Source: a virus
Direction: 5' to 3' (one strand)
Virus record (IMG/VR): IMGVR_UViG_3300020451_001103
Coordinates: 1 to 26,273 of that record
DNA: 26,273 bases
Shown: piece after piece, positions 1 to 17,908 of the stretch
Layout of the letters: every line of letters starts with the position of its first letter
Numbering within the stretch: position 1 is the stretch's first letter
The notes under the pieces: model-generated
What the model saw: the letters and a program-made list of their open reading frames with translations, nothing else
Told to the model about the DNA's origin: nothing
The model's database searches: none
Position numbers and translations under genes: made by a program

Positions 1-3000
1 AGTCTAAATCTTTCAGCTGGATCACTCGTTTTACCAATTAAACTACTCTGACCTGCTCCACCATTTACAGTAAAGCCACCAATTGTACCACCACTAAACA
101 GTACCTTTGAACCAGTTATTTGACCACTATCTTTTAATTTTAGAATAGAACCTACAGATACCTCACCTGATGCTACAACCAAGCCACCGACTTCACCACC
201 TGTAAGGCTAAGAGCAGAAGCAGTTACATCACCGCCAGCAGAAACTTTAAATCCACTAGATGATATAAAAGAAACTGGATCAGCAGTATTTGTAGACGAT
301 GATATTTCATATGCCGTTCCTGAACTTAATTTTGTAGAACCGATTGTAAGACCACCGATTTCACCAGTTGTAGCAGTGACTTTACCACTCATTATAGTAC
401 TTCCACCACTTACATGAAATGTCGAAGAACTTATCTCTAAATTTCCATTCGAGCCACTTACAAACTGAGCTCCACTTCCAAGATAAAAAGCAGAAGAACT
501 CATAAATACAGCATCACCATCAAAACTTAAACGACCACCGGCAGCATCCCCAACTAAAAATTTAGTTTTGTTATCCGATGGATTATTGCCTTGTACAAAA
601 AATCCTTTGTTGGTGCCAGTTATTCCTGTTGGTCTGGGATTACCAGCGGATATAAATCCACCATCACTAGAGCTAATAAATAAATTATTTGCAGATAATT
701 TAAAAACATCAACATCAACAGAAAACACAGAAGCAGTTACGTTTATATCCTCAGACCTTATGTTAACAGAAGTACCATCGAAGTAAATGTAAGAAACACC
801 CTCACCTATCTGAAATTTGTATTTTCCATCTGTATCCTGACCAAACAATATACCAGATACACTATCCGCTCCGAATTGTGAACCACTTCCCATTCTTATT
901 AACTGATCTTCACCACTCATCGTTACCGAACTGTTTCCAGTACCAGCAGATAGTTGGTCATCTTCTATTGTAAATCCACCAATGTTACCAGCATTAGCAG
1001 TAATTGTTCCTGTCATATTAACATCACCACTTGATGAGAGATGAAAATTTGATGAACTTATTTCAATTTTTTGTCCAGAACCACTTATAAATTGTGTGTT
1101 TGTTTTTCCCACAAAGAATGAATCGGCTTGTACATCAAACACACTTGGATTAGTTCTGAATTTCAAAGAACCACTAACACCAACTAACTCTAAACCTACG
1201 CCTTTGTAATCATCGCCGCTGTCAGGAAATACTGAACCACTAAACATCATAAAGCCATGCTTACCATCAAGACTAGCATTTGAAGCACTTGTAAATCCTT
1301 GATAACCTATAGAACGAACATAACCAGAGCCACCGACTAATTTGCCTGTTTCACTAGAGACTGCTTCAGCACCACCCATATCAATACCATCACCAGACTC
1401 ACCACCAATAAACATATTACCTTTTAAGACATTATCAGTTCCAACAACAACCAAATTAGAACCACTAAACTCTACATTTTCTAACCTGACAACAGAGTCT
1501 GCTAAATTGTTACTTCTATCATAGAAGTTAACTATGAAATCAAATTTGTCTGGTCTTACCAAAAATTCTTCTGGCATCTGTTGTAAGAAGTTTACATAAG
1601 ACGGCGAGTATCCAGTTCCATATGCGGGTGTTATAGATATATCAGATAAGTTCCACTCCCCATCAAATACTCTAAACTGAACAATAGCACTACCACTAGA
1701 ATTAAAAGCAAAATTATGTTCTACTCTACCATAAGACGAAGTTAATTGACCATCTATGTCCGTAAGATATCCAAGTCGGTATCCGTAATCGTTACCATCA
1801 ACTATTTCAGTTTCTTGACTATCAGTTTCTACAGGATAATATAACTTATCATCTGCATGTGATGTTATAGAACCTGAAACATATACTAACATTAAAGACT
1901 TTTCAGTTAGTCTATCTAATCTCGTTACTGCATTAAAAGAAAGAGTATAATCAACATTTTTTCTCAAGTAAAAAGAGTAAGTATCATCTAATTGAAATGT
2001 TAATTGTTTATCAGAACCAGAAATGCTACCTGATAAATGAACAGAATCAAGTAAGTAATTGTTTGTATAAGAAGCAGTTACAGTACTAGCTAATGAAGAA
2101 TCCAATCCACTCATAGTACTACCTGAAACATTCCAATAATTGTCTATTTCTTGTGAAGCACTAAAGTGACCATCCAAACCACCAAAGTAACCAGTTCTTA
2201 TCCTACCAGCAACAACATTTTCATTTACTAATAGTTCAGGTGGCTGTAGTGGAACATATGCTAAAGTTCTAAAGTCTGATATATCTTGAGAAGTTCTACT
2301 TCTAATTAAAACTTCTGCTGAGTAAGCCTCACCTGAAAAGGTTCTAAGGTTTGCTAAAGTCATATTTGCAACAGATACAGTATTTGTAAAATCAAAAGAT
2401 GATGATGGCGGAACTTCATATTCCACTTTACCTATACCTTCAAACGGCAATACCCTTTTGTTAAAAGTGTATGGTACTCCTGTAAAAGCAACTTTATTAT
2501 TAGACAGTCTATCTATTGATGCAGAGTATGGTTTAGTATCATTGGAACTTGATACAGCAATCGGCGGCGTTACATCTAATTCTCTTAATGAATTGTCATC
2601 TAAACTAGATGTAAAATTACTAAAAATTATTCTACCACCAGCATATTTAGTTAGAAATTCGCTATTACTTTCATCAGCTATCTGTATGGCATATGGAAAA
2701 GATACCGGAGAGTTTTTCTTTTGTATTTTTCCTGAACGAAACTCATAGGCATTATCTTTTATACCCTTTTTTTCCGCATAACTTTTTTCTTTAACATCAG
2801 ATTTTGGGTCTAATGGATTTTTTATAATTTCGTCAGATGAGTCTTTTGTAATATCTATTATTTGGTCTTTTAATAAATCTCCCTGATCTGCATCTTTGTC
2901 ATGATTTTCAAATTCTTTACCTTCTGAATTTTCTAAAGGTAAACCAAAAACTCTACCTAAAGAAGCAGTTGCTAGTGTTCCAAAGTTACTCACTTCCAAA

Positions 3001-3506
3001 CTACCATAAACTTTTTCGGTAACAGTTAATGTCGGTTGTGTGTAAAATTTTATGGGTTGTACATTTATATCGGTTGGATTGACTATAAAGTTTTTAGTAA
3101 ATCTTAAATTGTAAGTTCCACTATACTCTTCAGGTACTGCTTCAACTTCAGAGAATTCACTAGGACCAGATGGTATAACTTCTAACTCTGCCGCTATTAT
3201 AATCGTGGCGATGCCAGGAGCAGTATCATCATGTATCTCAACTGATATTCTTCTAGAAGTTCCCTCTAAATGATCAGAAACTGGTTCATGATATATAGCA
3301 GACCCTTTACTATCAAATATGTCTATTTTTAACTCAACATCATCCTTTAGATACTTAGATACCTCTATTAGAAAAGAACTTTTTCCTTGTGGAAAGCTTT
3401 CTGGAAAATCAGAGATAGATATGTATCTAGACTTATCAAATTCGTCTATGAGAACATCAATATTTTCTAGTTCTTGTAATCGAATAAATCTTTTTACAAC
3501 GCCCAT
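1..3506 (-). CDS. giant virion structural / tail-fibre-like protein, N-terminal 1168 residues (partial)
   Basis: Reading the minus strand from the ATG at 3506-3504 gives an open frame to the window edge, about 1168 codons with no stop; the C-terminus lies outside. A ribosome site (AGGGAA) sits just upstream of the ATG. The N-terminal part (about 1-190) is beta-rich and is followed by a charged K/D/E linker (about 195-260). The middle is Ser/Gly-rich with many SGS tripeptides. From about residue 790 there are repeated beta modules, each with an EISSS core and ending in GNIGGFTI, GEIGGLTI, GEVGGLVV or GTIGGFTV. This composition is typical of large fibre or baseplate-associated proteins of environmental T4-like phages, where the GG(F/L)T(I/V) repeats suggest beta-helical or triple-stranded fibre segments. 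The exact role (fibre, adhesin or wedge component) is inferred from composition and from neighbouring tail genes. I found no receptor-binding tip in the visible part. Confidence 0.85.
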   Translation of the reverse strand, partial: MGVVKRFIRLQELENIDVLIDEFDKSRYISISDFPESFPQGKSSFLIEVSKYLKDDVELKIDIFDSKGSAIYHEPVSDHLEGTSRRISVEIHDDTAPGIATIIIAAELEVIPSGPSEFSEVEAVPEEYSGTYNLRFTKNFIVNPTDINVQPIKFYTQPTLTVTEKVYGSLEVSNFGTLATASLGRVFGLPLENSEGKEFENHDKDADQGDLLKDQIIDITKDSSDEIIKNPLDPKSDVKEKSYAEKKGIKDNAYEFRSGKIQKKNSPVSFPYAIQIADESNSEFLTKYAGGRIIFSNFTSSLDDNSLRELDVTPPIAVSSSNDTKPYSASIDRLSNNKVAFTGVPYTFNKRVLPFEGIGKVEYEVPPSSSFDFTNTVSVANMTLANLRTFSGEAYSAEVLIRSRTSQDISDFRTLAYVPLQPPELLVNENVVAGRIRTGYFGGLDGHFSASQEIDNYWNVSGSTMSGLDSSLASTVTASYTNNYLLDSVHLSGSISGSDKQLTFQLDDTYSFYLRKNVDYTLSFNAVTRLDRLTEKSLMLVYVSGSITSHADDKLYYPVETDSQETEIVDGNDYGYRLGYLTDIDGQLTSSYGRVEHNFAFNSSGSAIVQFRVFDGEWNLSDISITPAYGTGYSPSYVNFLQQMPEEFLVRPDKFDFIVNFYDRSNNLADSVVRLENVEFSGSNLVVVGTDNVLKGNMFIGGESGDGIDMGGAEAVSSETGKLVGGSGYVRSIGYQGFTSASNASLDGKHGFMMFSGSVFPDSGDDYKGVGLELVGVSGSLKFRTNPSVFDVQADSFFVGKTNTQFISGSGQKIEISSSNFHLSSSGDVNMTGTITANAGNIGGFTIEDDQLSAGTGNSSVTMSGEDQLIRMGSGSQFGADSVSGILFGQDTDGKYKFQIGEGVSYIYFDGTSVNIRSEDINVTASVFSVDVDVFKLSANNLFISSSDGGFISAGNPRPTGITGTNKGFFVQGNNPSDNKTKFLVGDAAGGRLSFDGDAVFMSSSAFYLGSGAQFVSGSNGNLEISSSTFHVSGGSTIMSGKVTATTGEIGGLTIGSTKLSSGTAYEISSSTNTADPVSFISSSGFKVSAGGDVTASALSLTGGEVGGLVVASGEVSVGSILKLKDSGQITGSKVLFSGGTIGGFTVNGGAGQSSLIGKTSDPAERFR

Positions 3507-3591: not shown

Positions 3592-3765
3592 ATGAAAAAA
3601 AAATATTCCTTTACTATAGATGAGAACCTTATGAACTGGTTTAGAGTCTATGTTAGAGAGGAAAGCACCACGATGTCCGCTGTTTTAAATCAGCACATAC
3701 TAAAACTAAAACGTGGCGAGAGTAAACCTAAAAATATATTATATTCTAATCAAAAAAAACATTAG
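3592..3765 (+). CDS. small ribbon-helix-helix (CopG/Arc-like) DNA-binding protein
   Basis: This encodes a basic 57-residue protein. A short beta strand (KKYSFTIDENL) is followed by helix A (about 9-19) and helix B (about 22-37, TTMSAVLNQHILKLKR), the order expected for a dimeric ribbon-helix-helix repressor that binds DNA through its paired strands. The ATG at 3592 is preferred because GGAG (3579-3582) lies 9 bases upstream. An in-frame ATG at 3577 would add five residues but has no evident ribosome site. The gene is divergent from the giant structural gene. It runs convergently into the 3' end of the Mre11-Rad50 gene, overlapping it by 20 bases. A plausible role is autoregulation or repression of the shared upstream region. 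Assignment rests on fold pattern only; the C-terminal 17 residues look disordered. Confidence 0.6.
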   Translation: MKKKYSFTIDENLMNWFRVYVREESTTMSAVLNQHILKLKRGESKPKNILYSNQKKH

Positions 3766-6700
3766 AAAAAGTGTTTTCTTTTTTAATTTCTAATAGAGTA
3801 TCCACAGCATCTCTCATAGAATCTATATGAGATACAATCATTGTAAATTGGAATTGTGATTTGAGATATTGAAATAAGTTATAAACAGAATTAAGGTTAT
3901 CGGAATCCATTGTCCCCCAACCCTCATCGATTGCCAGAAAGTTAGCAGCTGGTAAGTTACTCACATTTACCAATCCCACACGTATAGCTAGAGAGGAGAT
4001 AAATCGTTCCATACCGCTACTTAATTCAAGAGGCCATACATTGTCATCATCGTACACTATGTAACAATTAATATTCTTACCATCCATTTCTAATATCATA
4101 GAAAAATCTACTATCTGTGCTAGTATATCGTTTACAGCACCCTCAACAGTTGGAAGTGCTTTGGATATCAACTCATACGGAATACCATCTCTTTTTATAG
4201 CATCCATATAGTATTGATAAGCTGCATATTTATCTTCTAATTCTTCCACTTTCTTTATGTTCTGCATAATGGTTTTTCGTTGAGTCTCTAATACCTTTAC
4301 TTCACCATTCACAGATTGGAGTTTTTTATCTGTATCTTCTATAAACTCTTCTATTACATCAGATTGTTGCTGAGCATCCTCAATATCATTAATTAACTTC
4401 CTGTTGAATATGATATCTTTTTCTTGTTCGTGATATAGATTAATCTTATCTTCTATTAGTGCTAACTGACTAATAAGATTTTTTCTTTTTTCGGTAGTAA
4501 GTTTTTTCTCACTATCCAACTTACTGATATTGGTTGTTAGTAAACTCAGGCTACTTATAGATTCATCCATTTGTTCTTTATGTGCAGTAATGTGAGATAG
4601 TCCGTTTATGATATCGTCTAAGTTATCAGATTGTTTTACAAAAGTATCCGCTAACATCTTATCATCATTAAGCTTCTTTTTAGTTTCCATAGCATCTAAT
4701 GTAAAAGGATTTGCCATACAATAATCACAATTGGAATCATATTCTAAATTACCAAGCTTATCAATCTTGTCTAATTTGTTCTTTACCTCTATTTTGAGTT
4801 TATCTATCTCAATTTGATTGTTACTCTTATCTAATTTATACTGTTCTAATTGAGCAAACTTTTTATCTATTTTATTCTCTCTGTAGATTTTTATCTTCTC
4901 ATTTAATTCAGTTTCTTCTACTGAAAATTGTTCTGATAATGTGGCAATCTCACCAACCCTTTCATCTACTTTGTTTAAAGAGTTAGTTAGATTAATTTTA
5001 CGTTCTTGTAACTCATCTAAACTGTCAGCACTTTCATCAACTTTTCTAAGTTCTTTAGTTAAATCAATAATTTTTTTATCGTATTTTTTCTTATCAGAAA
5101 CTAAGTCTTTCTTAGTAATTGTTAACTCTTTGGAGTCTTTTTTCATATCAACTAAATCTTTTTTGATATCAGCTAAGTCTCTGTCGTAATTATTCTTTTG
5201 AAAAGATTTTAAAAGTGATTGTACATCGTGAATCTCATCAGCAGCTAAAGTATATAATTGGTCAAAAACACCAATACCCATAAACTGTGCAAGCAAATCC
5301 TTTCTTTCTTTTTGTGTCTTATCAATAAATACCGTAGAATTCGACTGTAGAGATAATGAAGTCATAATAAAATCTTCATATGTGCCTATAACTTTACGGA
5401 TATTTACATCAGTAGTTCGTCTCTGGTCTCCATTCATAGAAACTTTTTCTCCATCATCGGCGAATGTATAAAAATCTACATTCACTTTCACATGACCATT
5501 ACGTTGTTTTTTACCGGTTCTTTCTATAAAGTATTTCATGCCATCAACTTCTAATGTTGCTTTACAATAAAAGTTATTTTTCTTACTGTTGAGAACGTTT
5601 ATAGCTTTGAAGGCTCGAGAAGAGGTATCAAATAGACAGAATGAGAGAGCATCTAATAGTGAAGATTTGCCACTCGCATTCGGTGCAAACATTCCGATTA
5701 TACCATTTAGTTTTGTGAAATCAACAACATTGTTTTCCCCATAACTAAACATATTATCAAACTCGAACTTTTTGACTTGCCAGGTTACGCCTCTATTTAC
5801 ATTATCTTCAGGTAACCTCACATTCAGTTCTTCATTAATTTTCTTAATATCGATAAGCGTATCTTCATCAACAAAATGATTTGATTTTAGGTACTCTTGT
5901 ATTAACCCATATTGGTAATCAGCATCCCTAATATTTCCGACTGTAATTCTCTGACCACGCACTTTTTCCATTGTTGAAAATGAGTCTGTTTTTGTAACCG
6001 ATACTTCTTTTATCCCATACTTACTGTGGATAAGAGTCATAGCCTTTTTTAACTGTGATGGTGTGGTATCCGAAACTCTAACTCTCAATCGAGCTTTCTT
6101 TGGCATATCAGGACAATCAGGAACCCGCCCATCTTTTATATCTAAAGTGTAATAGCCGTAGTCATTTGGTACTTCAATATACTCTGACTTTCTCTTTGGA
6201 ACATCCCACAATAAATAACCGTGGCTCAAACCTTCCCCATGATTTTGCTGAACCAGAGAACCACAATAAGATATGGTTTCTTTTTTGTTGAGATGCTGTC
6301 TTTTGTGGATGTCACCTAGCAATCCCAAATCGTAACCTTTGAACTTAGAGATTTTAACATCAGATGGTAAGAAAAATCCCAAATCCGTTTCTGACTTATC
6401 AACTGTTCCGTGAAAGAGAACTACCTTTGTATCACCATCAAAGTCTTTAGCTTCAATATAATCATCTTCTTTCTCCCACACATCCCAAACAACAAACTTT
6501 ACATCAGCACATTTGTATACACCACTGTGTTTTAAGTAGTGTAAATCAGAATGTTGTAGGTTGTTTACGATAGGAGAGAGTACATCCATTCGAGAAAGAT
6601 TATTTAAATTACAATCGTGATTGCCTGCAATAATAATTGTAGGACATATGTCTGCAAGATTTTTAAATAATCTAGAAAGCTGATCGACTAATTCAGGCGA

Positions 6701-6901
6701 CATTTCGGTTTTTGAATGAGCTATATCACCACCAATATAGACTACGGCATTATCTTTATGTTTTTTTACTTCTTCGTATGTACGTTCAAATACTTCTTCA
6801 TATTCCTTATGTCGCTTAAGGTTACGGATTTGAATATCCGAAATATGATGTATGTATTTTAACTTCCGAAAAGGTACTTTAACAACATTTTCTTTAATCA
6901 A
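3746..6901 (-). CDS. gp47/gp46: Mre11-Rad50 (gp47-gp46 / SbcD-SbcC) single-chain recombination nuclease
   Basis: The 1051-residue protein joins two subunits that are separate in T4 (gp47, 339 aa; gp46, 560 aa). Residues about 14-330 are an Mre11-type phosphoesterase: SDIQ (21-24), GGDIAHS (57-63), GNHD (93-96), HG (164-165) and GDIH (196-199). Residues about 376-1051 are Rad50-like: Walker A GMFAPNASGKSS (403-414), long coiled coils (about 555-900) around a zinc hook CDYC (725-728), ABC signature LSSGMERF (960-967), Walker B FLAIDEG (988-994) and switch His in VSH (1023-1025). The family resects DNA ends for recombination-dependent replication. The start is TTG at 6901-6899 with an AGGA ribosome site 6 bases upstream; no in-frame ATG occurs before residue 67. 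The TTG overlaps the TGA stop of the upstream small gene. The motif I His is Gln24 here. Confidence 0.93.
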   Translation of the reverse strand: MIKENVVKVPFRKLKYIHHISDIQIRNLKRHKEYEEVFERTYEEVKKHKDNAVVYIGGDIAHSKTEMSPELVDQLSRLFKNLADICPTIIIAGNHDCNLNNLSRMDVLSPIVNNLQHSDLHYLKHSGVYKCADVKFVVWDVWEKEDDYIEAKDFDGDTKVVLFHGTVDKSETDLGFFLPSDVKISKFKGYDLGLLGDIHKRQHLNKKETISYCGSLVQQNHGEGLSHGYLLWDVPKRKSEYIEVPNDYGYYTLDIKDGRVPDCPDMPKKARLRVRVSDTTPSQLKKAMTLIHSKYGIKEVSVTKTDSFSTMEKVRGQRITVGNIRDADYQYGLIQEYLKSNHFVDEDTLIDIKKINEELNVRLPEDNVNRGVTWQVKKFEFDNMFSYGENNVVDFTKLNGIIGMFAPNASGKSSLLDALSFCLFDTSSRAFKAINVLNSKKNNFYCKATLEVDGMKYFIERTGKKQRNGHVKVNVDFYTFADDGEKVSMNGDQRRTTDVNIRKVIGTYEDFIMTSLSLQSNSTVFIDKTQKERKDLLAQFMGIGVFDQLYTLAADEIHDVQSLLKSFQKNNYDRDLADIKKDLVDMKKDSKELTITKKDLVSDKKKYDKKIIDLTKELRKVDESADSLDELQERKINLTNSLNKVDERVGEIATLSEQFSVEETELNEKIKIYRENKIDKKFAQLEQYKLDKSNNQIEIDKLKIEVKNKLDKIDKLGNLEYDSNCDYCMANPFTLDAMETKKKLNDDKMLADTFVKQSDNLDDIINGLSHITAHKEQMDESISSLSLLTTNISKLDSEKKLTTEKRKNLISQLALIEDKINLYHEQEKDIIFNRKLINDIEDAQQQSDVIEEFIEDTDKKLQSVNGEVKVLETQRKTIMQNIKKVEELEDKYAAYQYYMDAIKRDGIPYELISKALPTVEGAVNDILAQIVDFSMILEMDGKNINCYIVYDDDNVWPLELSSGMERFISSLAIRVGLVNVSNLPAANFLAIDEGWGTMDSDNLNSVYNLFQYLKSQFQFTMIVSHIDSMRDAVDTLLEIKKENTFSNVFFD

Positions 6902-7116
6902 GTATTATCCTTTAAGAACTTTTTAACTTTATCAATTTTATTATTTGGCACTATGACGTCCCAAGCTGTTTCTTTAGAAAGTCTACCACTTTCGTAGTAT
7001 ATAGTAGAACCGTCCAAACCAAAAGCATCGTTAAGTTTTTTACGAATACTGTTATCAGTAATGTGAACTTTCCATTCATCATCATTAAATTTCCATATAT
7101 TTTCGTTTTTTGCCAT
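6898..7116 (-). CDS. small conserved-type protein between primase and gp47/46
   Basis: This 72-residue protein is not recognised. It is soluble, mixed alpha/beta and Trp-containing (W8, W15, W52), with a Lys-rich C-terminal helix (VDKVKKFL-like). It begins 32 bases inside the primase gene, and its stop overlaps the TTG start of the Mre11-Rad50 gene, so it is part of a tightly coupled replication/recombination transcript. That context suggests a small accessory factor for primase or nuclease, but no motif shows it. The reading frame is accepted because of the overlaps on both sides and an ATG consistent with operon spacing. Confidence 0.75.
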   Translation of the reverse strand: MAKNENIWKFNDDEWKVHITDNSIRKKLNDAFGLDGSTIYYESGRLSKETAWDVIVPNNKIDKVKKFLKDNT

Positions 7117-8026
7117 TAAGTCTCATCCTCATTAAATCGGAAAAGGAAGTTTGTTTAGTTTCTTTAATAAGATTATTGGTTTTCTTAAAGCCATAATCTG
7201 ATGGGTCTCCCTTTTCAAGATTTACGAAATAAACATTTATTCCATTTTTCATAAAATCATCTATCATTTTAATAGAGTCTTTTACTGCATCCCTATCTAA
7301 TAATATATATATAGTCTTGACTTGTTTTTCATAAATTTTTTTCATTAATATTTTAGGTACAGTTTTACCGAAAAGTGGAATAGCATTTCTCTTTACAGCA
7401 ATAGCATCAAAAACACCCTCACACAAAACAATTGGCTCATCCCAATTAATAAATAAATCAAATCCTATGATATTTTTAGATACAGGTGGATTTTTATACT
7501 TCATACCATCTTTGTAAATACTCCTACCAACAAAATAATTTAACTCTCCATTAGAATCATAGCTTGGTATGATAACTCTATTAGAGTACAAACCACCATC
7601 ACAGTAGCCAATTCCATATCTGAGAATATCACCTTTAGTAATACCCCTATTTTGTAGATACACCCACGAGTGTTTTTGAATTATACCACCACCATTATCC
7701 CACATTGGTTTAAATTCATTTGGCAACCTTAATATTTTTTCCTTGTTTTTTTTACGATTTGATGATAGTGATTGAGATGGTTTTCCAACTAATTCACTAA
7801 GCTCTGTAAATTGCTCTCTATTTGCTTTTAGTTTTTTGAATAATTGAAATAGATTATGACCACCTTGATTAGATACCCAACAATGCCATTTGCCAGTCTT
7901 TACATTAATTTGTAGTTTTGGTTTGTGGTGTGAAGTAAAGGGAGACCAATACATATACTCATCGGCTTTCTTTAACCGTCTGCCGTGATTTCCTATTACT
8001 CTATTTAGAAGATTTATTATTTTCAT
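7085..8026 (-). CDS. gp61: DnaG-type DNA primase (gp61-like) with degenerate zinc ribbon
   Basis: The 313-residue protein has the layout of a phage primase that lays RNA primers at the fork with a helicase. The N-terminal region WSPFTSHHKPKLQI...GKWHCW (27-50) aligns by eye with the CHC2 zinc ribbon (normally CPFH...YHCFGCG). Only one Cys (C49) remains, at positions where three Cys and one His are expected. The TOPRIM catalytic domain is intact: acidic EG at 203-204 within VLCEGVFDAIA, DRD at 244-246 in ILLDRDA, and GDPSDYG (273-279). T4 gp61 is 342 aa, so the length is a little short. The start overlaps the upstream nuclease gene by 26 bases, and the end overlaps the next small gene by 32 bases. 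TOPRIM makes the primase call strong; loss of zinc binding is inferred from residues alone. Confidence 0.88.
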   Translation of the reverse strand: MKIINLLNRVIGNHGRRLKKADEYMYWSPFTSHHKPKLQINVKTGKWHCWVSNQGGHNLFQLFKKLKANREQFTELSELVGKPSQSLSSNRKKNKEKILRLPNEFKPMWDNGGGIIQKHSWVYLQNRGITKGDILRYGIGYCDGGLYSNRVIIPSYDSNGELNYFVGRSIYKDGMKYKNPPVSKNIIGFDLFINWDEPIVLCEGVFDAIAVKRNAIPLFGKTVPKILMKKIYEKQVKTIYILLDRDAVKDSIKMIDDFMKNGINVYFVNLEKGDPSDYGFKKTNNLIKETKQTSFSDLMRMRLNGKKRKYMEI

Positions 8027-8354
8027 TAATTAATTCTATAAACTTTTCTACATTAACAACAGCGTATGTTTTACTTCTGTTTCTTTTAAATATCAACACA
8101 GGATCGTAATCACCACTATTTTCTTCTGCTTGATTTAATGAATCCCATATATTTAATTTTTCTTGATTTTTACATTCAAATGAATAAGGAATGAGTCTAC
8201 GAGCCGCGGGGGATAATTTAATATCTTCTCCTGATTCACCCATGATAGCAGATTTGATATCATCGGGTTCTAGTTGATTAAAGGTTTCTAACAAAAGATC
8301 TCTAACATTGTTCTGAAGTCTCTTACCTTTATTCTTGGCACTTCTTGATTTCAT
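8001..8354 (-). CDS. putative PD-(D/E)XK-type nuclease (possible Holliday-junction resolvase-like)
   Basis: A 117-residue basic protein. The N-terminal helix KNKGKRLQNNVRDLLL is followed by GED (42-44), then a strand ending FECK (59-62), which together fit the D...(E)xK core of PD-(D/E)XK nucleases: D44, E60, K62. The final third (PVLIFKRNRSKTYAVVNV) fits the last two strands of that fold. Related small nucleases in phages act as junction resolvases or structure-specific endonucleases. Its place at the head of the primase/Mre11-Rad50 block agrees with a DNA-processing job. The 3' end overlaps the primase start by 26 bases. No clear Shine-Dalgarno is seen; the leader instead carries heptamer repeats ending a few bases before the ATG. 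The specific substrate cannot be told from the sequence. Confidence 0.65.
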   Translation of the reverse strand: MKSRSAKNKGKRLQNNVRDLLLETFNQLEPDDIKSAIMGESGEDIKLSPAARRLIPYSFECKNQEKLNIWDSLNQAEENSGDYDPVLIFKRNRSKTYAVVNVEKFIELINENNKSSK

Positions 8355-8543: not shown

Positions 8544-8930
8544 TTACATCCATTTAGATAATTCCCTTTTTGCAAATCTTTCTGCTTTCTCTTCCCACTT
8601 ATTATCATCGTGAGGATCTAATCCATCATAAGCTGCCATTGTGCCAGCCTGTGTATATTTTTTTATATACTTCCTTACACCTAATCTTTTAGCATCCAAT
8701 GCGTGTCCTATTTCGTGTAACACAGTCATTAAGAATTCCTTTACATTTGGATATGATGGTCTTATCGTTACTGTATCGGTTTCTGGTACATATTCACCGA
8801 AGTCTTTACCTCTTCCCATTTTAATTTTAGATTTTAAGCCATATTGCCTAATCAACTCTCTAGCAGTCTGTAAATAATCTATCCTTTCAATAAGAAAGGA
8901 AGTTTCCATCATTCTTTTGAAATTACCCAT
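8544..8930 (-). CDS. small HExxH zinc metallopeptidase-like protein
   Basis: A 128-residue protein with a zincin motif HEIGH at 72-76 (H72, E73, H76). A second acidic cluster EEKAERFA (113-120) probably supplies the third zinc ligand, as in the small SprT/ImmA-type gluzincin-like families (E-x-x-A-x-x-F-A pattern). The upstream strand DTVTIRP (52-58) fits the edge strand that precedes the active-site helix. There is no signal peptide and no membrane segment. Its ATG overlaps the stop of the preceding virion gene (TAATG), so it is co-translated as the last gene of the tail operon. That suggests a late role such as virion maturation, peptide trimming or attack on a host protein; the substrate is unknown. 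Confidence 0.75.
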   Translation of the reverse strand: MGNFKRMMETSFLIERIDYLQTARELIRQYGLKSKIKMGRGKDFGEYVPETDTVTIRPSYPNVKEFLMTVLHEIGHALDAKRLGVRKYIKKYTQAGTMAAYDGLDPHDDNKWEEKAERFAKRELSKWM

Positions 8931-11728: not shown

Positions 11729-14700
11729 TTACTTACTACCTTCTTCTTTATCATCTAATTCTTTTTGTATTTGATTTGTTAACTGATCTTTTTGAGACTT
11801 TGTTAATTCATCTACTGAATCAAATGTTACTTCTTTTCCTGAAGTATCAACAAAACTTTTTGCTCCCGTATCATCTTGTTTTACTGATTGAATTTTTTCA
11901 TCTTTAGATAATGTTTTCTCTTCTTTTTCTTTTTTATCCTTAAACTCTGATTCTTTACCAAACCCAGTTTTCAAAGATGACTCTGCAGTTTTTGTTGTTA
12001 CTAGCTTAGTTGGTGCTGTAATAACAACTTCTATCGGAGAACCACCATCTAAAGTAGTTTTTAGTGTATTTTTAACACCTCCGTATAGAATATTAAATAA
12101 AGCTTGATTTTCTTCTGCTTTGTTATCTATATCAACATTTTTGAAAGACGATGAATGAAAATTATCTGCGGAAGCACTAGCTTGTGTAGAATAAAATTTT
12201 CTTATCTTTTGATTTCTTCCGTAAATTCTAGACCCACTAATTACTGGTTGTAAAACTTCAGCATACTTTACATCACCAAATGTTATTGTGGAGTGTGAAT
12301 AGAAAGCATCATTATTATTCAGTCTACTCCAAATAGTTCCCTGTGTAAATCTATCTCTTACTTCAGAACCACTAGCCTCAAATGTAGAATATTCACCGCT
12401 TGATGAAACTACTGAAGAGCCTGTTTCATAACTGTAAATGGGTATTCTACCATTATAAGCATCATATGTTGTAATTGTAGAACCAGCATTATATGAACTT
12501 GATATAAAAATACGTTCACTGTAATCAATTGATGAAGAGTAATAAAAGTTTTTAGCATCAGGTTTTCTTCCTCTTATTACTTTGGATCTCTCTAATATAT
12601 TGGGTTCAACCAAAACTCCCACCCTAGCTTTTGCTCTAGCAGGAATCATTTTTCTTATTTGTGGAAACATAGACTGATCGTAGTACTTTAGTATTCTTAT
12701 ATAATCCCAAAAATTATTTGGTGAATTGTACTTTTTCCAATAGTTATCTGCAACATACTCTAATCCTCTATACTCATATTCTGTTATATCTCTAGGGTCT
12801 CCTAAGAAGTTATCGTAATTCAGATTAGCAACAGAATTTATGATATCGGTATTTATTACATCAGTTGGAGCAAAGTAAACACCAACTCTATTTGAGTCTA
12901 AGGGTGCAGTATCGTAAGCACCAACAGTTACTCTACGATTCGCATCTAAATTTCCAAGAACTCTTTCATTACTTTCTAGTCTAATTTTTTTCGTAGTTCT
13001 TCTTAGTGCGCCTATACTTGGTATGTGAGTTTTTTGTTCATCCACCACACTTCTAAAAAAGTTACCTGTAAATCCAACATAAGAACCAGAAAAAGCCTTC
13101 TGCTGTTCAGCTCTAGAATCAAGTATACCACCAGCATATGTACTTAAATCTTGATTATCGTCAAAGGAATATCTTAGTGTCAAGTGTTTGTAAGAAGATG
13201 AAATCGAATTACCATCATATGCTTTTGGGTTAGATGCGTGATTTCTAAAGGATGATGTTTGTAGTGTTTCTGTCCAATGTCTATACTCCATAATTGAACC
13301 ACTAAGTCTTATTCCAGTTCCTGTAATAGTTTCCTTACCACCTATGTATATGTCTCCACTACCAGTCCAAGCTAAATTAAAAGATGCCGAAGCTGCCACA
13401 TCAACATTCATCGTTGACTTACTATATAGATTAATTCTACTCATTCCAGCATCGTATTTAGCAACATGTAATTCATATGATTGTGATACATTTGGATTAC
13501 TGCTACCAGACATCCTACGAAGCATAACAGAATAAAAATCTCCATCATATACAGGTAAAGCAGATGAAGTTAATTCTTTATACTGACCAATAGAAGTTCC
13601 AGTTGCTGAACCTGACAGTAAAAATGAAACATGACCATAGTCATCTGATGAATTATTATCTTTTAGTCTTATAATCCAATCTTGGTCAGTTGTGGTAGAT
13701 TGTTTCTCTACAAGTATTTGATTTGAGCCAGTAGCAGATCTAAACCTAAACTCTACAGTGTCAGGCTTTCTATTTGTAAATCCATCATCAGTCCATACAG
13801 TATTAACATACTGAGCACTTCTGAAATCTAACGCTTTTGTAAATTTTCTTGTAATTTCATATGATACATTTTTAGTATCAGGTAAATCAGGACCACCATA
13901 TTCTTTAACTCTTAGTATGGTTGATGGTATACCATAAATATTTATCAATCCTTTTAGTGCTTTTACTGTTCCTTTATGTTTTAAGAAAAATGGCATATTG
14001 TTTATTATACGACTCCATATTTCTCTAGATATATCCCTATCGGATACTGCTGAAAAATCTGAGTACGATGAGCCAGTAACCTCAACACCGTAAGCATATC
14101 TTGGAAGATCAACCAAATCTTTAGCATCAGGTAACTTCCAACCTAAAGACCTAGCCATAGTATATAGCAACTCTTTTGATACACCCTCATCTAACTTTTC
14201 TCTTCTATCGTACACGTCAGTCATACCCTTTGTATACAGCCATATTTGGTCAAAGTGTTGAGCAACCATATCTATAAAATTAGTAAAATCAGTATTTTCA
14301 GAATCCTCAGTAAGATATGCGGGTAGGTGATAACTTAACCTATTTAGATTTTCAGCATCATAAACTGAAGCACTTGTTATCTGATTAGAAAAAAAAGTTT
14401 GTCCTTGAGACGAAGTTGTATGTGCTAATGTATACGGATACTGTACTGATCCTGAACCTCCCGTTTTCGGCCAAGAATTACTGTAGTATATGCCAAGAGA
14501 ACCACTTGAACGAGAGGAACTTTCAAAATACATATAACTTTCAAAATCATCGAAGTTATTTTTTACATCATCAATTTTTGTTTGCCAAGATTTTCTGTCG
14601 TCTAAAGAACCACTAATTCCAACTAGAGAACCGCTTGAATCTGAATATGATTCTAATAATTCAAGTTTATATTTGAAGTTTTTAATTCTCTTTTCAACAG

Positions 14701-17700
14701 AACTAAAATTTATAAAGTTTTCAAATTGTCTATAGTCTGTGTTTAACTCTACACTTTCAAAACTTTGAGATATAAAATCATTTCTTAACTTATTAGAAAT
14801 ACTAGCATCATCAGTTAGTATTTCAGTTTCACTTTTATAATCAGTTGATTGTCTACTTACAAAGTCAATACTGTTTATGTCTGGTGTTTTTAAAACTATA
14901 TCACCGACCTCCGTATCAACAAAGTCAACTATTTTTACAGCATCAGTAACAGGGTCCATCATTTCTTTTACAATGGTAAATTCATCAAATCTCCTAATAT
15001 CAGGAGGAAGTGGTTTGTATAGCTTGAAAACTATAGAGTAAGGATAGTTAGGATTATTTATTGCATCTCTTTTGAAATTAGTTGTTAAAAATAAATCATT
15101 ATCCCTCATCAAATATGTTCTTAAATCGTAGGGATTATTTACAACATAACTTAGTGTAGCATAATTAAATGAGTTTGAAAAATTTCCATCATTGTACTCG
15201 CTGTTTTCTTCACCGTAAAGTTTTAATCTAGCATCTTCCCAACTATCTTCTACTTGAATAACATTGTTAGTTAGAACATTAGTTATTGTTGTTATGTATG
15301 GTTTAAGAACATCTTTTGTAGTAGTTTGTGACTCATATGTTATATCAGCAAAAACATTATCAACCCAAACAATTCCTTGTTGCTGTACAAGACCTGAAAA
15401 TCCACTGTGACCATAAAATCCTATGTTATATGGAAGGTCTAACCGAAAGCGTTCAGGAATAATAATTTGAACTTCGTATCTATTCCATTCATTTGAGGTT
15501 GCCACAGATACAACTTCACTAGCCCCATCTCTACCAACCACATATTCATAAGCACCATATAGGTCAGTTTGCAAATCCTCCCACTCAGTACCATTCCACT
15601 TAAATCCGTTATTTGCTGAAAAGAATTCAGTATCAGTTGTAAAACTATTGGTTTGAAAATTATAATATTGACTTATAATATTATTTCCTGTTAAACTATT
15701 TAAAACTGGCAGAGTCGCAGGAGTAACTTCAGAAACAATTCCTTCATTTATTACATAGTCAAGTAAACCTAAGTATGTACTGTAGTCAGGAGTAAGAGCA
15801 GCTGGAGACCAATCATCAAACCCATTCCACTGCCATTGTCCAGATTCGTCTAACAAGCCACGTCTAGTGTATAATCCTGTTGATAGTAAGCTTTCATTTC
15901 TATACCAAACAACATCTTGCTGTGTAATAAATCCTATTTGCCAAAGTCCAACACCACCAAATATTTCACTACTAGCACCAATCGCAATATCACTTGTAGT
16001 AAAGCCTTCAGCAAGAATTGGAGCTAAGATAGAAAGTGATGTTTCAGGTATGCTTTCTGCCAACGAAGCACCCGCATCTGTATTTGGAACAAAACCTTGT
16101 GGTGGAGATGTTGGTTTATCTACTGTTGGTGTCGTAATATTAAGTAATTCTGATAATCCACTACTGTTAGGATTCCATTGGTTTCCATTCCAAATCCAAC
16201 CACCACCTGGACTTAATGTACCAGCTTTTGAAAATGTAGTTCCCCACCTATTTTGGTTATGTAAATCAGGTAACCAGTCTACCGCTGTTAACTCCTGTTC
16301 ATCGAACGCAACTGTAACGTCTACCTTATCTGTATATCTCCAATATCCATTTTCACTTTGACCACTATTCGGTATAGTTCCAGTAAGTTCATTACCCACA
16401 ACCCAATAGCCTGCAATAAATTCATTTTCAGGATCATCAGCACCTATTTGAAACGGGTCTACAAGTCCAAATGTTTGACTCGCATTAAAGAGACTTTCAA
16501 ACACTTCTGCTTCATTCGGTCTGTTAGGAACATAACCTGTAGGGGGATCTTCTGGCTCTTCTTCATCTGCACCAGATTCCAATTGTTCATTTATAAGAGA
16601 TAAATCAATAGTGAGTTGGTAATCTGGTTGCTCTTCTACTTCTTCTCCTTGAGCATATCTCAAGTAGACATTAACACCCTTACCAGCAATATTTGCTTTC
16701 ATATCAAATGCTATATTTACTGTATCTCCTATGGATACACCTTGACTTAACAGAGTTGTTAATGCACCACCTTCAGTTTCTATTCTTAATGGTCTGTACT
16801 CATCCCCATTCCAACCTGGACTATCAATAAAATCTAAATTGGTGTCTGGAAATTTCATACATACACCACCATCAACACCCTCTCCTCTAGCCCATTGTGC
16901 GTGAAATCCATAAGCAGCAGTTCCATACCAATCACTACTAGGAACATCAAAGGGTGAAAATCCTGAAGTCCATCCCACAGCCCTTACAGCAGCAATATGT
17001 AGATACTCATCCCAAACAGAACTTATATCACTCCAAACTAACAACTGACCAGTATCAAGATTATAAGATAGTTCTTCTCCTGAAGGATTGCTTATTAGAT
17101 TTATTTCACTTCTAACTTTAGATTCTATCTCAGAAATTTTGTATACATCTGGTATCGCAACAACACCACCTATCATTCTATCTGCAAATCCACCATTCGT
17201 TGCTGCTTGAAAGCTGGGAGAAAGTACTGACAATATTTTTGAAGTTGTTTCAGCACCATCATCCGCAACAAATCTTATTTCGGCATCACTTGGAGGATCA
17301 GCATTTGGCGGAGAACCTATTAGTCTAAACCTATTACTTTCTTGTGCTTTACTAAAACTTTCTTGATAAGAGCCCTTTATGTCTTTTGCTTTTAGTCTGA
17401 CCTCAGTTCTACTTGGAGATATCAAGTCAATTTGATATTTTAAATCTTCTATTCTCAAAGGAACTGAAGTTTGATTTGACTGTTGCCAATCTTCTTCTGT
17501 TCCCTCAAATATTAATCCATCTTCCGTTATATGAAAATTATTTGTCTTAGAGTAAATTTTTCCTTCTTCTTCAGGTGGTGTAGTCTTTACCAATACACTC
17601 TGTTCATTTCCGGCTACTCTTCTCAAAAATTGATATTTTACTGTAAAAAGTCCACTGTTAAAACCAGCATTTTGAATATGAATTGAAGGGTATAGTGCTA

Positions 17701-17908
17701 AACTTTGATCTGTGTTACTAGATGTTCCGTTAGAGGATAAAAGGTTTTTATATGTTATTAGATTTCCAGATGCATCATATAATTCAAACAATATAAAGTC
17801 ATTTTCTTGAGTACCAAACTTTCCGTTCTCATAAGGTCTAATACCTACAATTCTCTTTGATTGAGTAGTTAGTGCTTCTCTATCTTTTCTTGTTAATTTA
17901 CTAGACAC
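11729..17908 (-). CDS. 2059-aa baseplate wedge / tail protein with gpI-like core, lectin-like domain and nested repeats
   Basis: The largest gene starts with GTG at 17908-17906, overlapping the previous TAG stop by one base (TAGTG). Domains seen: an N-terminal beta domain (about 20-180); a jelly-roll, CBM-like domain (about 300-422 plus 783-860) split by a three-repeat insertion (about 424-782); and a tail-protein-I-like helical core (about 1185-1340: LSYHLPAYLTEDS, FDQIWLYTKGMTDVYD, FFLKHKGTVKALKGLINIYG). A LamG/concanavalin-like sandwich follows (about 1350-1600), then an IRKMIPARAKARVGVLVEP segment (1751-1769) typical of wedge proteins, and a K/E-rich tail (about 1985-2059). Position after gp6 and the gpI-like core suggest the place of T4 gp7 (1032 aa), with sugar-binding modules added. 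The wedge role is inferred; the gp7 equivalence is uncertain. Confidence 0.9.
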   Translation of the reverse strand: MSSKLTRKDREALTTQSKRIVGIRPYENGKFGTQENDFILFELYDASGNLITYKNLLSSNGTSSNTDQSLALYPSIHIQNAGFNSGLFTVKYQFLRRVAGNEQSVLVKTTPPEEEGKIYSKTNNFHITEDGLIFEGTEEDWQQSNQTSVPLRIEDLKYQIDLISPSRTEVRLKAKDIKGSYQESFSKAQESNRFRLIGSPPNADPPSDAEIRFVADDGAETTSKILSVLSPSFQAATNGGFADRMIGGVVAIPDVYKISEIESKVRSEINLISNPSGEELSYNLDTGQLLVWSDISSVWDEYLHIAAVRAVGWTSGFSPFDVPSSDWYGTAAYGFHAQWARGEGVDGGVCMKFPDTNLDFIDSPGWNGDEYRPLRIETEGGALTTLLSQGVSIGDTVNIAFDMKANIAGKGVNVYLRYAQGEEVEEQPDYQLTIDLSLINEQLESGADEEEPEDPPTGYVPNRPNEAEVFESLFNASQTFGLVDPFQIGADDPENEFIAGYWVVGNELTGTIPNSGQSENGYWRYTDKVDVTVAFDEQELTAVDWLPDLHNQNRWGTTFSKAGTLSPGGGWIWNGNQWNPNSSGLSELLNITTPTVDKPTSPPQGFVPNTDAGASLAESIPETSLSILAPILAEGFTTSDIAIGASSEIFGGVGLWQIGFITQQDVVWYRNESLLSTGLYTRRGLLDESGQWQWNGFDDWSPAALTPDYSTYLGLLDYVINEGIVSEVTPATLPVLNSLTGNNIISQYYNFQTNSFTTDTEFFSANNGFKWNGTEWEDLQTDLYGAYEYVVGRDGASEVVSVATSNEWNRYEVQIIIPERFRLDLPYNIGFYGHSGFSGLVQQQGIVWVDNVFADITYESQTTTKDVLKPYITTITNVLTNNVIQVEDSWEDARLKLYGEENSEYNDGNFSNSFNYATLSYVVNNPYDLRTYLMRDNDLFLTTNFKRDAINNPNYPYSIVFKLYKPLPPDIRRFDEFTIVKEMMDPVTDAVKIVDFVDTEVGDIVLKTPDINSIDFVSRQSTDYKSETEILTDDASISNKLRNDFISQSFESVELNTDYRQFENFINFSSVEKRIKNFKYKLELLESYSDSSGSLVGISGSLDDRKSWQTKIDDVKNNFDDFESYMYFESSSRSSGSLGIYYSNSWPKTGGSGSVQYPYTLAHTTSSQGQTFFSNQITSASVYDAENLNRLSYHLPAYLTEDSENTDFTNFIDMVAQHFDQIWLYTKGMTDVYDRREKLDEGVSKELLYTMARSLGWKLPDAKDLVDLPRYAYGVEVTGSSYSDFSAVSDRDISREIWSRIINNMPFFLKHKGTVKALKGLINIYGIPSTILRVKEYGGPDLPDTKNVSYEITRKFTKALDFRSAQYVNTVWTDDGFTNRKPDTVEFRFRSATGSNQILVEKQSTTTDQDWIIRLKDNNSSDDYGHVSFLLSGSATGTSIGQYKELTSSALPVYDGDFYSVMLRRMSGSSNPNVSQSYELHVAKYDAGMSRINLYSKSTMNVDVAASASFNLAWTGSGDIYIGGKETITGTGIRLSGSIMEYRHWTETLQTSSFRNHASNPKAYDGNSISSSYKHLTLRYSFDDNQDLSTYAGGILDSRAEQQKAFSGSYVGFTGNFFRSVVDEQKTHIPSIGALRRTTKKIRLESNERVLGNLDANRRVTVGAYDTAPLDSNRVGVYFAPTDVINTDIINSVANLNYDNFLGDPRDITEYEYRGLEYVADNYWKKYNSPNNFWDYIRILKYYDQSMFPQIRKMIPARAKARVGVLVEPNILERSKVIRGRKPDAKNFYYSSSIDYSERIFISSSYNAGSTITTYDAYNGRIPIYSYETGSSVVSSSGEYSTFEASGSEVRDRFTQGTIWSRLNNNDAFYSHSTITFGDVKYAEVLQPVISGSRIYGRNQKIRKFYSTQASASADNFHSSSFKNVDIDNKAEENQALFNILYGGVKNTLKTTLDGGSPIEVVITAPTKLVTTKTAESSLKTGFGKESEFKDKKEKEEKTLSKDEKIQSVKQDDTGAKSFVDTSGKEVTFDSVDELTKSQKDQLTNQIQKELDDKEEGSK
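15563..16639 (-). repeat. three-unit protein repeat inserted in a beta-sandwich of the 2059-aa protein
   Basis: Residues about 424-782 contain three units ending in WIWNGNQW (571-578), WQWNGFDDW (692-700) and FKWNGTEW (769-776). Units 1 and 2 begin with PPTGYVPN (455-462) and PPQGFVPN (602-609). The sequence before (NVYLRYAQGEE) and after (YEYVVGRDG) reads as the two halves of a single carbohydrate-binding-like sandwich. Confidence 0.7.

Follow-up and report, generated by a model that had tools for sequence, protein, structure and literature searches.

In this analysis, we show that a gene on the minus strand of a 26,273-nt stretch of viral DNA (positions 1 to 26,273 of the IMG/VR record IMGVR_UViG_3300020451_001103, hereafter the window) is an Mre11-Rad50 fusion, in which the counterparts of T4 gp47 and gp46 share a single uninterrupted frame with the nuclease at the N-terminus. 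Mre11, a nuclease, and Rad50, a motor, are the two partners of a universal machinery that processes DNA breaks. It is very probable that this gene supplies a marine T4-type phage with the gp47-gp46 (SbcD-SbcC, Mre11-Rad50) complex as a single chain, which would process DNA ends for recombination-dependent replication. Direct support for this reading comes from the fusion itself, the order of its domains, the ATPase motifs, the retained helix-loop-helix of the nuclease, the conservation of the protein, and the finding that nearly all long relatives have no second Rad50-type gene. The coordinates of the features are given in Table 1. An initial annotation of the sequence had offered the fusion as novel; this claim does not survive, as hundreds of IMG/VR loci, the Microcystis phage Mel-JY01 and two megaphages have the same arrangement and a paper of 2011 deals with fusions of just this kind. 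The fusion adds to an already described kind, published since 2011.

Table 1. Features of the fusion gene and its upstream neighbours in the window
Feature	Position	Strand	Basis
Mre11-Rad50 fusion gene, 1051 codons + stop, TTG start	3746..6901	minus	ORF, Pfam, PHROGs
Rad50 C-lobe ATPase, residues 905-1051	3749..4189	minus	Alignment, structure matches
Rad50 coiled coil, residues 572-902	4196..5188	minus	Long helices predicted (AlphaFold2)
Zinc hook CDYC, residues 725-728	4718..4729	minus	Alignments
Rad50 N-lobe ATPase, residues 373-570	5192..5785	minus	Pfam, model, structure matches
True inter-domain linker, residues 362-372 (~11 residues)	5786..5818	minus	AlphaFold2, alignment
Mre11 C-terminal helix-loop-helix (Rad50-binding), residues 327-361, retained	5819..5923	minus	AlphaFold2 helices; T. 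maritima alignment
Mre11 capping-domain region, residues 241-325	5927..6181	minus	Alignment to T. maritima Mre11 3qg5_C
Mre11/SbcD phosphoesterase domain, residues 15-240	6182..6859	minus	PF00149 17-199; Z ~23-24 to SbcD/Mre11 entries
Gln24 codon, motif I D-I-Q vs canonical D-x-H	6830..6832	minus	Alignment, tree
72-aa ORF between primase and fusion	6898..7116	minus	Without family match
AAAGGA, Shine-Dalgarno-like, 6 nt ahead of fusion TTG	6908..6913	minus	Direct sequence reading; function inferred
DNA primase (phrog_47; DnaG_N, Toprim)	7085..8026	minus	Profile matches
PDDEXK phage endonuclease/resolvase-like (phrog_244, PF24608)	8001..8354	minus	Profile matches

A single frame for both halves

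The initial annotation had placed both halves in one 1051-codon frame without stating the strand. Pfam and PHROGs confirm this frame on the minus strand, and in a frame check the plus strand across 3746-6901 is riddled with stops. Read directly, the sequence TTGA combines the start codon of the fusion with the overlapping stop codon of the 72-aa ORF before it. Pfam assigns Metallophos (PF00149) to residues 17-199, AAA_23 to 382-621 and SMC_N to 376-1043, and the PHROGs profile phrog_77 (SbcC) covers residues 375-1048. The protein contains GGDIAHS, GNHD and GDIH, followed by Walker A APNASGKSS (residues 406-414), the hook CDYC, the signature SSGME (961-965) and Walker B AIDE (with D992/E993), and D999 and H1025 also lie in the C-lobe. 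An alignment of 38 members shows no variation at the residues of Walker A, the signature, Walker B and the H-loop, or at C725 and C728 of the hook, which sits at the coiled-coil apex. Like Rad50/SbcC, the C-terminal half is an ABC ATPase whose lobes are separated by a coiled coil; it has Walker A, the signature, Walker B and the D- and H-loops, and it matches Rad50 entries at Z ~22-29. The chain has SbcCD and Mre11-Rad50 heads as its structural neighbours, the ATPase half matching at Z ~24-29 and the nuclease half at 23-24. In an AlphaFold2 monomer model built from the 38-member input, the order is phosphoesterase, capping region, two helices, linker, Rad50 beta-1 at residue 373, coiled coil with a CxxC turn, and C-lobe; the arrangement of the domains in this model is not settled because its mean pLDDT is 75 and its pTM 0.43, and its confidence is weak near the nucleotide site and in the final 140 residues and low at residues 306-320 within the capping region.

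It had also been claimed that a short linker at residues 330-376 takes the place of the Rad50-binding helices of Mre11. This was wrong, because a profile of residues 1-400 aligns residues 192-365 with 202-375 of Thermotoga maritima Mre11 (3qg5_C) through the C-terminal helix-loop-helix, the aligned part of which binds Rad50 in T. maritima (Yoshida, Claverie, & Ogata, 2011; PMC3175470). The model likewise has helices at 327-341 and 346-361, leaving a linker of ~11 residues, and the stretch 366-374 is 9 residues long in 157 of 161 aligned sequences. Post-translational cleavage into two proteins, which would make the fusion purely genetic, is highly improbable; it might be argued from residues ~276-325, which precede the helix-loop-helix and are the least conserved stretch of the nuclease half in the alignment, whereas the near-constant length of the linker speaks against it.

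The window is a single 26-kb metagenomic virus record and the two T4 genes are near neighbours, so that an assembly or sequencing error could in principle have joined adjacent gp47 and gp46 genes. However, 156 of 161 related loci have a single frame of 1000 aa or more that contains both halves, with the same join and a near-constant linker at 39-96% identity, and the fusion is present in an isolated phage, Mel-JY01, as well as in two megaphages. Given these independent fused copies, the chance that the join is an artefact is negligible and we reject it. The junction DNA, read directly, has no in-frame stop and no frameshift hides two genes, which upholds the earlier identification of the frame as gp47-gp46 with no stop between its halves. 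The five loci outside this count comprise four that end at a contig edge and one (megaphage LR756508) interrupted by an insertion. A search for such fusions among viral and metagenomic proteins, which the initial annotation had proposed, found many: a whole-protein search of IMG/VR returned 133 relatives and a profile search at least 583 confirmed ones. Among the fetched loci, no split, two-gene relative was found in the clade of the window. Plasmid relatives in PLSDB were limited to weak, partial matches at the sensitivity used, which is why the known Clostridium kluyveri fusion was not recovered there.

The nuclease half and its motif I

The homology of the nuclease half to Mre11/SbcD is not in doubt and rests on Pfam, profile alignment and structure. 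D22, D59, H62, N94, H95, H164, D197 and H199 are invariant in the 38-member alignment, and according to the alignments the metal and catalytic residues of motifs II-V (D59, N94, H95, H164 and H199) are kept. In motif II a His replaces the terminal Asp, as it does in T. maritima Mre11 (GDLLH), and in GHxH the position of the first His is taken by Asp197, whose acidic side chain might still coordinate metal. The ratio dN/dS is ~0.03 for the nuclease and ~0.05 for the ATPase lobes. All phosphoesterase motifs had been credited to this protein, and this stands in part: GGDIAHS, GNHD and GDIH are present, but the His of the D-x-H motif I of an Mre11/SbcD nuclease is absent and replaced by Gln, so that the motif reads D-I-Q.

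Among 157 aligned sequences, residue 24 is Gln in 54, namely the window and 53 relatives of one marine clade, and His in the other 103. On a tree of 79 rows, the deep root of which is unusable since LR756501 sits on a very long branch, this corresponds to a single His-to-Gln change with an SH-aLRT of 100. As judged from sequence, Gln in motif I lowers the claim of a canonical metal site and leaves the homology intact. Activity with Mn2+ is not assured in the clade of the window because of this residue. The confinement of Gln to one clade by a single change might be taken to mean that the nuclease half there has lost or changed its catalysis and that the fusion acts mainly as a Rad50-type tether and ATPase with a modified metal site. 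We regard this as distinctly unlikely, as no other metal ligand varies, nor does the catalytic His, and the constraint on the nuclease domain is as strong with Gln (dN/dS 0.033) as with His (0.035). This equal constraint makes decay of the nuclease unlikely, and outright loss of the nuclease in the Gln clade was rejected since its dN/dS is not relaxed. The strict retention of the domain argues instead for activity, perhaps with altered metal use. We would tentatively suggest that Gln24 may alter the metal site of the nuclease in this clade, and perhaps also its preference in cleavage; such a change could be tolerable or even useful since nuclease and motor are in one chain. The change is the one unusual detail of the window fusion, of single origin and fixed in its clade, in a domain that remains under strong purifying selection.

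Phage context and proposed role

The genes around the fusion are those of a phage. Of 144 testable loci, at least 137 have a primase upstream of the fusion, 47 the PDDEXK gene and 37 the 72-aa ORF; farther upstream in the window there are T4-type baseplate genes (gp25-like and gp6/J-like). We read the virus carrying the window fusion as a marine T4-type tailed phage. In 16 relatives on records of at least 94 kb, the fusion is the only AAA_23 (Rad50-type) gene in 15, a Gp23-type capsid gene is present in 13 and RecA/UvsX in 11, these counts being those of relatives, because the 26-kb record of the window is too short to show such features. Several of the relatives' records are fragments, and some of these phages may have a second copy outside the part recorded. 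The other Metallophos matches in the long relatives are short ORFs of 193-278 aa, and one Metallophos frame, of 243 aa, represents the initial half of the interrupted fusion in LR756508. The relatives include T4-type phages with UvsX/RecA in which the fusion is the sole Mre11-Rad50 complex.

Two further observations concern the window itself. A small zincin-like metallopeptidase with weak matches to MPTase-PolyVal and phrog_87 is encoded at 8544-8930 (-), with the PDDEXK gene on one side and the tail genes on the other. The tail region contains two very large ORFs, at 11729-17908 (-) with 2059 aa and at 3-3506 (-) with at least 1168 aa, and neither has a PHROG match.

In T4, gp47-gp46 serves end resection in recombination-dependent replication and repair (Yoshida et al., 2011; PMC3175470). 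The domains of the fusion, its status as the sole copy and its neighbours make a similar end-resection role the most likely one. We infer that two fusion chains would dimerise into the standard M2R2 head, in which the Rad50 heads, opened and closed by means of ATP, would gate the access of DNA to the nuclease, with the CxxC hook pairing the coiled coils. The trimming of ends would then expose 3' single strands for the phage UvsX/RecA, in recombination-dependent replication as well as in repair.

Relation to known fusions and separate complexes

Thirteen cases of Mre11/Rad50 (SbcDC) fusion were reported in 2011, among them Mimivirus R555, Bacillus phage 0305phi8-36, a Clostridium kluyveri plasmid, a Deferribacter megaplasmid and several eukaryotes (Yoshida et al., 2011; PMC3175470). 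As in the window, Mre11 is N-terminal and Rad50 C-terminal in these proteins, and most keep the helix-loop-helix with a linker of ~9-12 residues (Yoshida et al., 2011; PMC3175470). R555 has His for the last Asp of GDxxD and Asp for the first His of GHxH (Yoshida et al., 2011; PMC3175470), and both substitutions are common to it and the window protein, which is shorter (1051 aa vs 1351 aa). Among viral proteins, those that best match the window protein in structure come from giant viruses and are as long as a fusion. Marine scaffolds with such fusions were found to have phage primases and endonucleases as neighbours (Yoshida et al., 2011; PMC3175470), as does the window. The window fusion differs from those of 2011 in its carrier, a T4-type tailed phage, and in the Gln at the motif I His. 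A close parallel in an isolate is the 'AAA domain containing protein' of Mel-JY01 (PP395634, WWT39521), a full-length fusion of 39% identity with the gene order primase, small ORF, fusion; this phage has a T4-type Gp23 capsid and RecA, whereas its host is the cyanobacterium Microcystis and its motif I His is intact.

In T4 itself the two domains occur in the same order, with 47 upstream of 46, but gp47 and gp46 are separate genes with two small ORFs between them. The hhalign probability is clear for T4 gp46 (97%) and weak for T4 gp47 (17%), the motifs of which read GDIFD and GHFH. Escherichia coli SbcCD and the Thermotoga and archaeal Mre11-Rad50 complexes share the fold of both halves (Z 23-29), and the helix-loop-helix of T. 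maritima Mre11 can be aligned; however, these complexes consist of two chains and have the canonical DxH motif I and the first His of GHxH (DWH and GHIH in T. maritima Mre11). Tenacibaculum phage pT24 encodes a 1310-aa metallo-phosphoesterase (phrog_35725) that is likewise a long single gene with an N-terminal phosphoesterase and matches the window protein structurally over most of its length, whereas its sequence similarity is confined to the nuclease half and the remainder has no Pfam match. In the PHROG profiles, T4 gp46 begins at position 294 of phrog_77 and phrog_100 (SbcD) spans 989 positions, which hints that both profiles may already include fused members.

We found no description of phage fusions in the literature newer than that of Yoshida et al. 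(2011), nor any experimental work on this family, and the accessible part of a jumbo-phage review presents SbcC and SbcD as partners and does not mention their fusion. The 2011 paper termed the fused form sporadic; among aquatic T4-type phages there is a large group in which it is the rule and mostly the sole form. A phage source had been suspected for the Mimivirus-R555-like reads of marine origin (Yoshida et al., 2011; PMC3175470), and a fused form common in aquatic T4-type phages would explain why such reads are numerous in marine viral metagenomes. The window fusion opens no new type of system; it is a compact single-gene Mre11-Rad50 enzyme useful for structural work.

Some of the related loci deserve mention in their own right. 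In LR756508, a 484-kb megaphage, an insertion of ~1 kb (L084:5585-6653) follows directly after GDIHKRQ of the fusion and holds a 305-aa ORF that has Cys clusters resembling zinc fingers and matches a TnsA-like endonuclease (PF08722); Rfam gave no group I intron match in it, and it looks like a homing-endonuclease insertion. The 735-kb megaphage LR756501 (L083, L163) has a fusion of 1202 aa and, ~390 kb away, a separate Rad50-type ORF of 566 aa, and may therefore carry both forms of the complex. Five fusions (L157-L161) come from bacterial or archaeal metagenome-assembled genomes labelled Chloroflexi, Nitrosopelagicus, bacterium, Pelagibacteraceae and Gammaproteobacteria; their probable source is phage contigs that were sorted into host bins, as the two placed on the tree (L157 and L158) cluster among phage sequences.
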